Of a stretch of DNA of 64,000 bases, positions 18,028 to 22,538 are shown piece after piece. How positions within the stretch are numbered: the stretch's first letter is position 1; the number at the start of each line of letters is the position of its first letter. The translations under genes and the position numbers were made by a program. The stretch spans positions 27,149-91,148 of the forward strand of contig JAOAEQ010000013.1 of assembly GCA_026416715.1 (NCBI GenBank), written 5' to 3'. Source of the DNA: a bacterium. GTDB taxonomy: Bacteria; UBP4; UBA4092; JAOAEQ01. Below the pieces are notes generated by a model. The model was not told where the DNA came from. It saw only the letters and a program-made list of their open reading frames with translations, and did not search any database.

Positions 18028-19194
18028 ATGTATCATTTTGACTGTCGATATTTTGTTGGTGAAAAACCATGTAAGTTTAAAGTTGTTTGTCAAGGATGTT
18101 CTCATTACGCCCCGGTAAGTGAACGGATTCTGATCATTAAACTTGCTGCTATTGGAGATGTCCTGCGCACGACCCCCCTTCTGACCGGATTAAAAAAGAA
18201 GTATCCTCGTTCGTTCATAACCTGGTTAACCGATCCCGGTGCAGCAGAACTATTGAACAATATTCCCGAACTTGACCGCCTGTTGAGGTATAACGGAGCG
18301 GAAACATTAACTCGTTTACTCGTTGAACGATTTGATATTTTGATTTGTTTGGATAAGGAAGTTCGGGCAACGGGATTAGCAATGCTGGTTAATGCGCAGG
18401 ATAAAATTGGTTTTGGATTAAATCAGTTTGGAACAATATTCCCATTTGATACTCGCAGCGAATATGCGTTTGAACTTGGGGTGAATGATGAATTGAAATT
18501 TCGGTTGAATCGAAAAACCTATCCGGAAATTCTCTATGAAATGGTTGGGTTACCGTACCATAAAGAAGAATATGTATTTCAGCTGGCAGAATCATCCTGG
18601 CAAAAAGCTAAAGAAAAAGCTAAACAATGGAAATTCGCTCCGACGGATTTAATCGTCGGATTAAACACTGGCGCTGGTTCAGTGTTCGCAACGAAAAAAT
18701 GGACGATTTCGGGATTCATAAAGCTTGCGGAATTGATTTATAAAAAATATCAACCAAAGGTTAAACTCCTTCTCCTTGGGGGACCGGAAGAAATCGGACG
18801 AAATCAGGAAATCTTGAAAAACAGTAGAGTTCCGCTTATTGATACTGGCACCGATAATAGTTTAACGGATTTTAGCGGACTGATTAACCTATGCGATATC
18901 GTTATCACTGCTGACTCTCTAGCAATGCATTTAGCAATCGCGTTGAAGAAACATGTGGTTGCATTGTTCGGACCAACGGTAGCGCAGGAAATAGAATTCT
19001 ATGGTCGTGGCGAACCGGTTATTGCTCGGGCGGATTGTGCGCCTTGCTATCGACAAAAATGCAATCAATTGATCAGCTGTATGGATCGGCTTGAAGCGAA
19101 AACGGTATTTCGTGCTGTTGAAAAAGTAGTGGACAAACTTAATAGGAAGAAGACTCGAAAAACGAAAATGCGGTTGTCTTCGTCTCGGCTTTAG
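18028..19194 (+). CDS. Glycosyltransferase family 9 (heptosyltransferase-like) with N-terminal Cys cluster
   Basis: 388 residues. A GT9 core begins at RILIIKLAAIGDVLRTTPLL. It continues with a nucleotide-sugar site region (LNTGAGSVFATKKW), LLLGGPEE, ITADSLAMHLAIALKKHVVALFGPT and a Cys-rich end (CAPCYRQKCNQLISC). These enzymes add heptose or other sugars to LPS core. Ahead of the core, ~30 residues carry C6, C15, C21 and C24, spaced like a metal or Fe-S site, an extension I recall in GT9 proteins of uncultivated lineages. The last ~10 residues (RLSSSRL) are encoded by a hairpin repeat spanning the stop codon. It probably starts the 18-23.4 kb operon. Confidence 0.85.
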   Translation: MYHFDCRYFVGEKPCKFKVVCQGCSHYAPVSERILIIKLAAIGDVLRTTPLLTGLKKKYPRSFITWLTDPGAAELLNNIPELDRLLRYNGAETLTRLLVERFDILICLDKEVRATGLAMLVNAQDKIGFGLNQFGTIFPFDTRSEYAFELGVNDELKFRLNRKTYPEILYEMVGLPYHKEEYVFQLAESSWQKAKEKAKQWKFAPTDLIVGLNTGAGSVFATKKWTISGFIKLAELIYKKYQPKVKLLLLGGPEEIGRNQEILKNSRVPLIDTGTDNSLTDFSGLINLCDIVITADSLAMHLAIALKKHVVALFGPTVAQEIEFYGRGEPVIARADCAPCYRQKCNQLISCMDRLEAKTVFRAVEKVVDKLNRKKTRKTKMRLSSSRL

Positions 19195-19199
19195 CCGAG
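19184..19199 (+). repeat. Hairpin spanning the GT9 stop codon
   Basis: CTCGGCT (19184-19190) and AGCCGAG (19193-19199) are exact complements around TT. The TAG stop at 19192-19194 lies inside the structure. The preceding TTCGTCTCGGCT recurs at 42791-42802 upstream of efp, so this is a dispersed extragenic unit that has invaded the gene end. There is no U-run after it, so termination is doubtful. Confidence 0.5.
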
Positions 19200-19248
19200 A
19201 GTGGTACCCAATTTATGGGATATGTTAGCACTGGAGGTTAAGTAGCTT

Positions 19249-20127
19249 TTGTTATACTCGCATCACTATTTCAAACAGATTATTCTAAACGAAATTAACC
19301 AGCGAATTGTTCGGCCAGTGCGGATTCTCAACTTCAACCCAATTGCTGAACATGACTTGATGCAAAAGCTCCAAGTCCAACTGCCGCAACAGATAACTAT
19401 TATTAATCCATACAACTTGTTTCCTGAATCCATAATCCGAAAGAAAATTGCTGAACTTCAACCGTTGTTCCACACCCAGCCTAAATCTCATATAGTTCTC
19501 CTCTATGATTTTAGTCAAACAGAAGTCGGAACTGAAATCATTAGCACATTGAAAACCGACGGTATCTCGGTTAAGATAATCGCCTCACCACCTGAAATAA
19601 TTAAACTAGCCCGGGAAAATAAAGACTGCGAATTCTATGTAATTGCTGCGGGATATGAACCATTAGCCGCCTTGATTGCCGCAACTATTTTGACCGCAAA
19701 ACATCAACAATTAACCAATATCCATCTCTTGGCTGAATTATATATTACTTCGGCGATTGTTCCAGTTGTTTATCATCAACTCAACGATGGTGTAGATGGT
19801 ATGTTTCTGCCCGGTGAACCTGCGGCAATATCAGGATTTAAAATTTATGAAAAGTTAATTCGTCAACTTGCGGTTCCCTGTATTATCGTAGGTAGTGAAC
19901 CGATCGATATTCTCCAAGCCATATCCATGCTGTTAGCGCAAATTGAACAGAATACGACAAAATTGGAAATCCAATATCGACATGCGATCCGACCAGAGGG
20001 AAATCCGATTGCGTGCACCAAATTGGAATCAGTATTTCGTGTGGTTGAAAGTTTTTGGCGCGAGTATGGAACGATACCGGCAAGTCAATTTGTTCTCAAA
20101 GATGAATTTGCCCAGTTTCAAGGTTAG
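19249..20127 (+). CDS. HypD-like protein lacking all HypD cysteine motifs
   Basis: 292 residues from a TTG supported by GGAGG at 19233-19237. The middle and end follow HypD, the Fe-S scaffold for the NiFe-hydrogenase Fe(CN)2CO ligand: IKIIASPPE-like strand, AAGYEPLAA (HypD GFETT), DGMFLPGEPAAISG (HypD PGH), GSEPIDILQAISMLL (GFEPLDILQ), QYRHAIRPEGNPIA and the WREYGTIPASQFVL tail. In HypD the N-terminal EVCGTHT and GPGCPVC motifs are essential; here the aligned segments read NFNPIAEH and NPYNLFPES. The C-terminal ~70 residues with the cluster cysteines are absent. Only three non-motif Cys remain. No hydrogenase or hyp gene is present. It is 54 bp after GT9 and 29 bp before the transporter fusion. 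Function unknown. Confidence 0.75.
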   Translation: MLYSHHYFKQIILNEINQRIVRPVRILNFNPIAEHDLMQKLQVQLPQQITIINPYNLFPESIIRKKIAELQPLFHTQPKSHIVLLYDFSQTEVGTEIISTLKTDGISVKIIASPPEIIKLARENKDCEFYVIAAGYEPLAALIAATILTAKHQQLTNIHLLAELYITSAIVPVVYHQLNDGVDGMFLPGEPAAISGFKIYEKLIRQLAVPCIIVGSEPIDILQAISMLLAQIEQNTTKLEIQYRHAIRPEGNPIACTKLESVFRVVESFWREYGTIPASQFVLKDEFAQFQG

Positions 20128-20156
20128 GGGTAAGCTCATTGTTTCCGGTGGATACA

Positions 20157-22538
20157 ATGCAAAAAACTAATTTGTTGTATTTAACCCTATTGCTGATACT
20201 ATCGCTAACACTATTTTCTTTCGCACAGGATAAAACGCGGTTGGTTATCTGGGGATTTCCGGAAGATGAATCCTGGGTAGGCGTCCATGCGCAAGCGAAA
20301 TATTTCGAAAAACTCCATCCAAATGTTGAAGTTGTTATGGGAGTTCCGGGCGGTCGTGGTGGAATGGATCCGCAGAAATTGATGACCGCTATCGCCGGCG
20401 GGACACCGCCAGACTTGATTTGGCAAGATAGATTTGCGGTTGGCAGCTGGGCAGCCCGTGATGCTTTTCTTGCCCTAGATGATTTAATCGCGCGTGATTC
20501 TGTTAACCCGAATGAATATTATCCCGCTTGCTGGCAAGAAACGATATATCAAGGACACGTGTATGCCCTACCCTATAACACTGACGCACGCGCTTTATAT
20601 TACAACAAAGATTTATTCCGTGAAGTTGGACTTGACCCTAATCGCCCACCTAAAGATTGGGATGAATTGGAAGTATATGCAAAAAAACTAACTAAATTCG
20701 AGAATGGCAAACCGATTCGTATGGGGTTTATTCCGAATTTTGGCAATTCTTGGTTATATCTCTACGGATGGCAAAATGGTGGCGAGTTTATGAGTCCGGA
20801 TGGAAAAATCTGTACGCTAAATGACCAAAGAATTGTTGAAGCGTTAGAATGGATGGTTAAAGTTTATGATATGCTTGGCGGTCGAGCGAAAGTCGTTAGC
20901 GGTTTCGAAGCTGGTTTTCAAGGACAGATAACGGATGCGTTTAATATTGGCAAAGTTGCAATGAAAATTGATGGCGACTGGTGTTTAGATGGGATAGCTC
21001 GGTATGCACCGAACTTGAATTTTGGAGTTGCTCCGCCACCTTCACCGAAAGGTAAACCAATTATCACCTGGTCTGGTGGATTTTCACTTGCAATACCAGT
21101 CAGTGCAAAACATCCGGAACTCGCTTGGCAATTCGCAAAATGGATGAACTCAATCGAGGGCAATATTTACGGAGGTAAAATTCAGCAAGAGTTTAACCGA
21201 AAGCATGGTAAACCATTTTATATTCCACGAATGTCTGCAAATAAACAAGTCAATCAAGTGCTGTTTTCTACCTTTCTTCCCGATGACCCGAATTATCAAT
21301 CAGCAATAAAAACATTTCTCGATTTACTTGAAGTTAGTCGATTTCGACCTGTTACTCCAGTCGGTCAATTACTTTGGGACGAACATGTTCGTGCATTCGA
21401 TGACGCAAGCTATCACATTCGGACTCCAAAGGAAGCATTAGATTTTGGAACTAAAAATGTTCAAAAAGAATTAGATAAAATATTTAAAAAGAAACCATAT
21501 AAACTTCTGAATGTTCCGATTACTTTAACGATCGTCTTTCTTTTAGTAGGAATGGTATTTTTGTATTTAATAATTCGTTTCCTTATTGCGCTTCCTCGAA
21601 ATGCTATTGGAAGACAAGAAGCGTTTACTGGGTTATTATTCGCTTCTCCATGGCTCTTGGGATTTTTGATTTTTACTATCGGACCGATAGTTGCAAGTAT
21701 CATATTTAGTTTTTGCGAATACGACGTACTCCATCCAGCAAAATGGGTCGGATTCGATAACTACCTCAATCTGTTATGGTTCAAAGTTGAGACAAGTAGT
21801 GAATCAGCTACCTATACTAAAGTTTTTACAGTGAATGACCCACTCTTCTGGAAAAGTATCTGGAATACCGTTTATATGGCAATTTTTGGGGTACCACTTT
21901 CGATGCTCCTCAGTTTATCTATTGCGATGCTCTTAAACACTAACGTTCGCGGCATGACACTATATCGGACTATTTTCTATCTTCCAGCGATTGTTCCGGT
22001 AGTAGCAAGTACTATCTTATGGCGTTGGTTTTTAAATCCGCAGACCGGAATAATGAATGTCCTTCTTTCTTATATTGGAATTACCGGACCGAATTGGATT
22101 GGTGACCCTCTATGGACGAAACCTGCATTAATTATCATGCTTCTCTGGGGTGCAGGTGGGGGAATGATAATTTGGCTAGCGGGATTGAAAGGTATCCCGG
22201 AACAACTCTATGAAGCAGCAGAAATTGACGGCAGCAATTGGTGGCAACGATTCTGGCATATCACCATTCCGATGTTAACCCCGTATATTTTCTTCAATCT
22301 GATTATGGGCATTATTGGATATTTTCAAATATTCACGCAAGCATATTTATTGGGTGGACCAGCGGATTCATTATTATTTTATGTATTAAATTTGTTTTTC
22401 CAAGCATTTCAATATTTTAAAATGGGATATGCTTGTGCAATGGCATGGATTTTATTTTTGATTATCCTTGGGTTGACTATTGTCCAAATTAAACTTGCCC
22501 CACGCTGGGTACATTATGAGCTAGAACGGAAGTTCTAA
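20157..22538 (+). CDS. Fused ABC sugar-binding protein and inner-membrane permease (MalF type)
   Basis: 793 residues from ATG 20157, preceded by GGTGG. A signal peptide (1-23, ending SFAQ) leads a family-1 extracellular solute-binding domain (~25-440: RLVIWGF, PPDLIWQDRF, ALPYNTDARALYYNKDLF, WQFAKWMNS). A membrane helix near 460-480 follows, then a MalF/UgpA-type permease with the EAA loop EAAEIDGSNWWQRFWHITIP. Normally these are two proteins; here the binding domain is tethered to its own permease. The partner MalG-type permease follows after 24 bp. No ATPase is encoded nearby, so a shared MsmK/UgpC-type ATPase is likely. Substrate unknown, probably an oligosaccharide. Confidence 0.92.
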   Translation: MQKTNLLYLTLLLILSLTLFSFAQDKTRLVIWGFPEDESWVGVHAQAKYFEKLHPNVEVVMGVPGGRGGMDPQKLMTAIAGGTPPDLIWQDRFAVGSWAARDAFLALDDLIARDSVNPNEYYPACWQETIYQGHVYALPYNTDARALYYNKDLFREVGLDPNRPPKDWDELEVYAKKLTKFENGKPIRMGFIPNFGNSWLYLYGWQNGGEFMSPDGKICTLNDQRIVEALEWMVKVYDMLGGRAKVVSGFEAGFQGQITDAFNIGKVAMKIDGDWCLDGIARYAPNLNFGVAPPPSPKGKPIITWSGGFSLAIPVSAKHPELAWQFAKWMNSIEGNIYGGKIQQEFNRKHGKPFYIPRMSANKQVNQVLFSTFLPDDPNYQSAIKTFLDLLEVSRFRPVTPVGQLLWDEHVRAFDDASYHIRTPKEALDFGTKNVQKELDKIFKKKPYKLLNVPITLTIVFLLVGMVFLYLIIRFLIALPRNAIGRQEAFTGLLFASPWLLGFLIFTIGPIVASIIFSFCEYDVLHPAKWVGFDNYLNLLWFKVETSSESATYTKVFTVNDPLFWKSIWNTVYMAIFGVPLSMLLSLSIAMLLNTNVRGMTLYRTIFYLPAIVPVVASTILWRWFLNPQTGIMNVLLSYIGITGPNWIGDPLWTKPALIIMLLWGAGGGMIIWLAGLKGIPEQLYEAAEIDGSNWWQRFWHITIPMLTPYIFFNLIMGIIGYFQIFTQAYLLGGPADSLLFYVLNLFFQAFQYFKMGYACAMAWILFLIILGLTIVQIKLAPRWVHYELERKF

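Follow-up and report, generated by a model that had tools for sequence, protein, structure and literature searches.

A HypD homologue without HypD's functional cysteines or [4Fe-4S] domain, encoded away from hydrogenase maturation genes

The window analyzed here, a 64,000-nucleotide stretch of bacterial DNA, contains an open reading frame at positions 19249-20127 of the + strand that specifies a 292-aa homologue of HypD comprising domains 1 and 2 only. The two alpha/beta domains of HypD's central cleft are kept in this HypD-like protein, whereas the [4Fe-4S] domain is gone, as are the ligand of the iron, the redox pair and the majority of residues that hold Fe(CN)2CO. The gene probably arose long ago as a paralogue of hypD, evolved fast and was repurposed. 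To our knowledge, the only role known for HypD is that of a hydrogenase scaffold.

Results

The open reading frame specifies a true HypD homologue

The sequence-only reading of this DNA had named the protein a HypD homologue, and this was borne out by profile and sequence searches. In particular, the Pfam HypD family (PF01924) matched residues 22-291 with an E-value of 7.4e-45 and a score of 154 bits (cut-off 25), TIGR00075 matched with an E-value of 1.5e-42 and a score of 145.8 bits, which lies under its equivalog cut-off of 192.8, and the sequence of the HypD from Thermococcus kodakarensis (PDB 2z1d) matched with an E-value of 4.6e-23. The HypD-like protein is a true HypD homologue and the match is not a chance one. 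It is a member of the HypD superfamily as defined by PF01924, but it is not a functional HypD as defined by the TIGR00075 equivalog.

A model of the protein made by AlphaFold2 with a HypD alignment as input had a mean pLDDT of 90.6 and a pTM of 0.88. VIA-align superposed this model on the HypD crystal entries 2z1d, 3vyr, 3vys and 3vyu over 284-289 residues, with Z-scores of 29.4-30.0 and rmsd values of 2.4-2.7, and the alignment to the T. kodakarensis protein extended up to residue 304, so that only domains 1 and 2 are represented. The proposed HypD fold was thus recovered by prediction and superposition. Note that a model made from the single sequence was poor (pLDDT 43.5), which argues that the confident AlphaFold2 model partly reflects the alignment of canonical HypDs. 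The next structural matches had Z-scores of 7-9.6 and were to common alpha/beta folds; those to periplasmic sugar-binding and LacI-type folds (Z 7-9) were set aside as the background expected of common alpha/beta arrangements. HypD itself is reported to differ in structure from other proteins in the PDB (PMC6886295).

Cofactor and redox sites are lost while fold-determining blocks are kept

To compare motifs, we aligned the HypD-like protein to 45 canonical HypDs, with HypD sites numbered as in E. coli. The order and fixed spacing of the G.E, PG, G.EP.D, GN..A, F and WR blocks are common to HypD and the HypD-like protein, as are the fold of domains 1 and 2 (PF01924/TIGR00075; 2z1d, 3vyr) and an aspartate in the cleft. 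At the MEVCGTH site, which contains the iron ligand C41, the HypD-like protein reads LNFNPIAEH (19327-19353, + strand), with Asn30 in place of the cysteine. At the GPGCPVC site, which contains the redox pair C69/C72, it reads NPYNLFPES (19405-19431, + strand) and residues have been deleted, C69 falling in the deletion and C72 corresponding to Asn56. Further along the + strand, GFET(T) has become GYEP (GFETT to GYEPL; 19651-19662), PGHV has become PGEP (19810-19821), which puts Glu190 at the position of H201, a proposed contact of the CN ligand, and GFEP has become GSEP (19891-19902), which puts Ser216 at the position of F227. The PEGN block (19993-20004, + strand) and the WR..G.IP block (WREYGTIP; 20056-20079, + strand) are kept. 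The replacements first read from the letters (EVCGTHT to NFNPIAEH, GPGCPVC to NPYNLFPES, and the GYEP, PGEP and GSEP variants) therefore hold when the protein is aligned to 45 HypDs.

The C-terminal [4Fe-4S] domain is absent together with its four cysteines, in agreement with the claim that the Fe-S tail is missing. Likewise, every Fe-S and catalytic cysteine is lost, as had been claimed: C41, C69, C72 and the four Fe-S ligands have no counterpart. Three cysteines remain (C127, C211 and C256), none of them at a functional position of HypD; the protein is stripped of functional cysteines, and to call it cysteine-free would be wrong. In a published model, Fe(CN)2CO is surrounded by C41, G42, G43, H44, G68, C69, F147, T149, P199, G200, H201, F227 and E357 (PMC11565642). 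Nearly all of these modelled contacts, T149 and F147 included, are replaced in the HypD-like protein, the sole survivor being the Pro-Gly of PGH.

When conserved columns were defined as those with at least 90% conservation in the 45 unselected canonical HypDs, the HypD-like protein kept 1 of 10 at cofactor or redox sites, 25 of 49 at other sites in domains 1 and 2, and 0 of 16 in domain 3. The contrast between the first two classes is modest and involves few sites (Fisher P 0.03). Outside the conserved columns, mean identity to canonical HypDs was 22%. The main rival to repurposing is decay: the gene would be a redundant second hypD that has shed domain 3 and its metal sites, and whose reading frame is still intact although no function is being selected for. 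We consider this unlikely, although the loss of nearly all catalytic features is what it would predict, because the cofactor sites have gone but the fold-determining PEGN, WR and G.EP.D blocks have stayed. That positions of the fold are far better preserved than those of the cofactor would make repurposing likelier than decay.

In HypD, the C69A and C72A substitutions abolish hydrogenase activity and strongly lower ATPase activity (PMC9900092), and the ATPase activity of C41A is less than full (PMC6886295). Judged by these published mutants, the HypD-like protein would be unable to act as an Fe(CN)2CO scaffold or to mature hydrogenases.

One functional position of HypD does survive. Asp87 (19507-19509, + strand) aligns with E. 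coli D98, a cleft residue that is invariant in 88 of 88 canonical HypDs and that is needed for the interaction with HypE, which it helps to dock (PMC12130793). This raises the idea that the protein binds HypE (or HypC) through the kept aspartate and so restrains or adjusts the canonical HypCD scaffold, as a regulator or decoy in maturation. We regard such a role as very improbable: a single aspartate is weak evidence, and C69 and C72, exchange of either of which abolishes the interaction with HypC by the account given of a cited study, are both gone.

The reading frame has the features of a living gene

The HypD-like open reading frame starts with TTG, 11 nt after a GGAGG that, as read from the sequence, is likely to be its ribosome-binding site (19233-19237, + strand); an in-frame TAG stop codon lies just upstream of the start (19243-19245). 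Its own stop codon (20125-20127, + strand) falls at the point where a canonical HypD runs on into the [4Fe-4S] domain 3, and the next gene follows too closely to leave space for such a domain. A frameshifted domain 3 behind the frame was considered and ruled out, since the next gene is only 11-29 bp away.

The 292 codons are free of stops, which in random codons would have a probability of 8e-7, and codon usage and GC content by codon position resemble those of the neighbouring genes (GC3 0.36). Stop-free length, neighbour-like codon use and the putative ribosome-binding site suggest that this is a living gene, known from one sequence. With regard to decay, the codon-preference score is slightly low (0.077, against 0.06-0.21 in the neighbours), which would fit a loss of selection, but neither a frameshift nor an internal stop has broken the frame, even though it has accumulated more than 2 substitutions per site.

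A canonical hypD and hydrogenase genes are present in the same genome

The genome that contains the window (G000; 2.96 Mb in 64 contigs) has exactly two HypD-family genes, the one in the window and a canonical hypD. The latter, which scores 500.2 bits against TIGR00075, is found on contig C2 downstream of hypF and hypC, and matches to the [NiFe]-hydrogenase large-subunit family occur on contigs C19 and C36. The presence of separate genes for canonical HypD, HypC, HypF and hydrogenase implies that the HypD-like copy is dispensable for maturation. These same genes would provide partners for a regulator or decoy; however, the genome has one HypC only, encoded at 93644-93838 of contig C2, with no second copy, and no hyp gene lies near the HypD-like gene. 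The earlier statement that hyp genes are missing thus stands for the neighbours that were read, and does not extend to the genome, where a canonical hypD accompanies hypC and hypF on another contig.

The sugar-transport neighbourhood is not shared with a relative

Upstream of the HypD-like gene is a run of rodA, a radical-SAM (DUF2344) gene, an RNase G gene and a gene for a GT9 glycosyltransferase. Downstream is a gene whose product has a MalE-type binding protein fused to a MalF-type ABC permease in one chain (20139-22538), and after it a gene for a MalG-type permease. The HypD-like gene is on the same strand as the GT9 and ABC genes; the gap to the GT9 gene is 54 bp, as first given, and that to the ABC gene is either the 29 bp first given or 11 bp, depending on which ABC start is chosen. 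Gaps of these lengths make it plausible that the HypD-like gene is co-transcribed with the GT9 and ABC genes.

Two features of the GT9 gene itself were also observed. In the protein (18028-19194), the N-terminal part contains a C-x8-C-x5-C-x2-C motif and the C-terminal part a cysteine motif with CAPC, both conserved in its orthologue in the only other genome of the phylum examined (G001), and these motifs suggest a bound metal in a heptosyltransferase-like enzyme. Furthermore, a perfect palindrome with a 6-bp stem (CTCGGC-TTTA-GCCGAG, 19184-19199), which lacks a T run and has one copy in the window, spans the GT9 stop codon.

The relative G001 keeps the run from rodA through the radical-SAM and RNase G genes to GT9, the GT9 proteins being 47% identical. 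There, the gene after GT9 is one for an M48-type peptidase, as read from sequence, and neither a HypD-like gene nor an importer follows the run; the only HypD in that genome is canonical. Several full-length homologues of the importer fusion occur in G000 and at least one in G001, and because G000 has only two HypD genes, its other importer fusions have no HypD-like neighbour.

These observations bear on whether the HypD-like protein serves the adjacent importer or GT9, for instance by sensing sugars in the cytosol or by assisting as an accessory protein. Strand and spacing are in favour, as are the domain matches to periplasmic sugar-binding and LacI-type folds, which lie within background; on the other hand, the neighbourhood is not conserved in G001, the importer fusions elsewhere in G000 do without such a gene, and the protein has no DNA-binding domain. 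We consider this role improbable, and the link to sugar transport, being adjacency in one genome, is weak. The proposed part in envelope glycan or sugar uptake is therefore unsupported.

No orthologue was found in wide searches

When 386 genomes from across the domain were searched at the protein level, no orthologue of the HypD-like protein was found. The best non-self matches were 26-36% identical and scored 106-124 bits; canonical HypD motifs were present in those loci that were inspected. A protein-pattern search of genome contigs and viral contigs likewise found no orthologue, PHROGs gave no match, and plasmid records had only annotated HypD among the matches listed, with an identity of at most 29.5%. 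A 335-aa second copy of HypD in one genome, a candidate short variant, proved to be canonical with a shortened N-terminus.

We also scanned DNA for the fixed HypD spacing together with a codon at the H201 position that does not begin with C. In a local test, the scan found 38 of 45 known HypD loci (84%) when any codon was allowed and, as written, matched only the window gene among the test loci; it is blind to His, Gln, Leu, Pro or Arg at the H201 site and to altered spacing. Among 84,980 genomes (~85,000 species), a collection that may omit close relatives of G000, the scan returned 50 matches, all of them HypD and none resembling the HypD-like protein, and repeating it on viral contigs gave no match. 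Asn occupies the H201 site in 46 of the 50; both cysteine motifs are intact in 43 of these, and 3 are cut by the ends of their loci. These H201Asn HypDs (among loci L067-L114) recur in Clostridium, Desulfosporosinus, haloarchaea and Bacteroidota, and show that the His of PGH, a proposed CN contact, is not universal.

The other four matches (L066, 4343-5464; L115, 605-1729; L106, 6128-7219; L111, 1651-2739) are atypical HypD-family genes that, like the HypD-like gene, lie in surroundings other than hyp clusters. PGH has become PGE, PGD or SGR in them, CGTH or GPGCPVC is altered, and two adjoin a gene for an rpoD-like sigma factor; the four form one group in the tree (support 0.93) and are the sole HypD in three of their four draft genomes. 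Unlike the HypD-like protein, which is under the TIGR00075 cut-off, they are full-length, keep domain 3 and most cysteines, are above the cut-off and branch separately.

In a FastTree phylogeny of 93 HypDs, the HypD-like protein has the longest branch, with 2.15 substitutions per site where the median is 0.23. It pairs with L083, a HypD from Desulfosporosinus, a result of long branches that was not relied on. A branch of this length and the lack of an orthologue in these searches are also what decay would predict. The distinct clade with conserved neighbours that the sequence-only reading had looked to for support did not appear, as no orthologue was found and the corresponding block in G001 lacks both the HypD-like gene and the importer.

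Discussion

Returning to the repurposed paralogue, what was observed is a HypD fold that has neither the cluster nor the catalytic cysteines and is encoded away from hyp genes; that part of the original proposal stands, and repurposing is what we infer from it. The product would most likely be a stable cytosolic protein, incapable of HypD-type electron transfer and probably a poor binder of HypC. The residues predicted to line its rebuilt cleft, where the strands of the sheet have their C-terminal ends, are Asn30, Asp87, Tyr136, Glu137, Glu190, Ser216 and Glu217. A polar cleft of this kind would most likely serve, with no redox chemistry, to bind a partner protein or a small polar molecule. 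More tentatively, the HypD-like protein may be a metal-free HypD-fold protein with a new ligand- or partner-binding function outside hydrogenase maturation, and possibly the first such repurposing without cluster and cysteines. We found no HypD-family protein lacking both the cluster and the cysteines described in open-licence papers.

A natural HypD fold minus all metal chemistry, so far represented by a single example, would reveal what such a fold does alone. The HypD-like protein would thus be a natural test piece for HypD's proposed binding of ATP, HypC and HypE as against its redox role.
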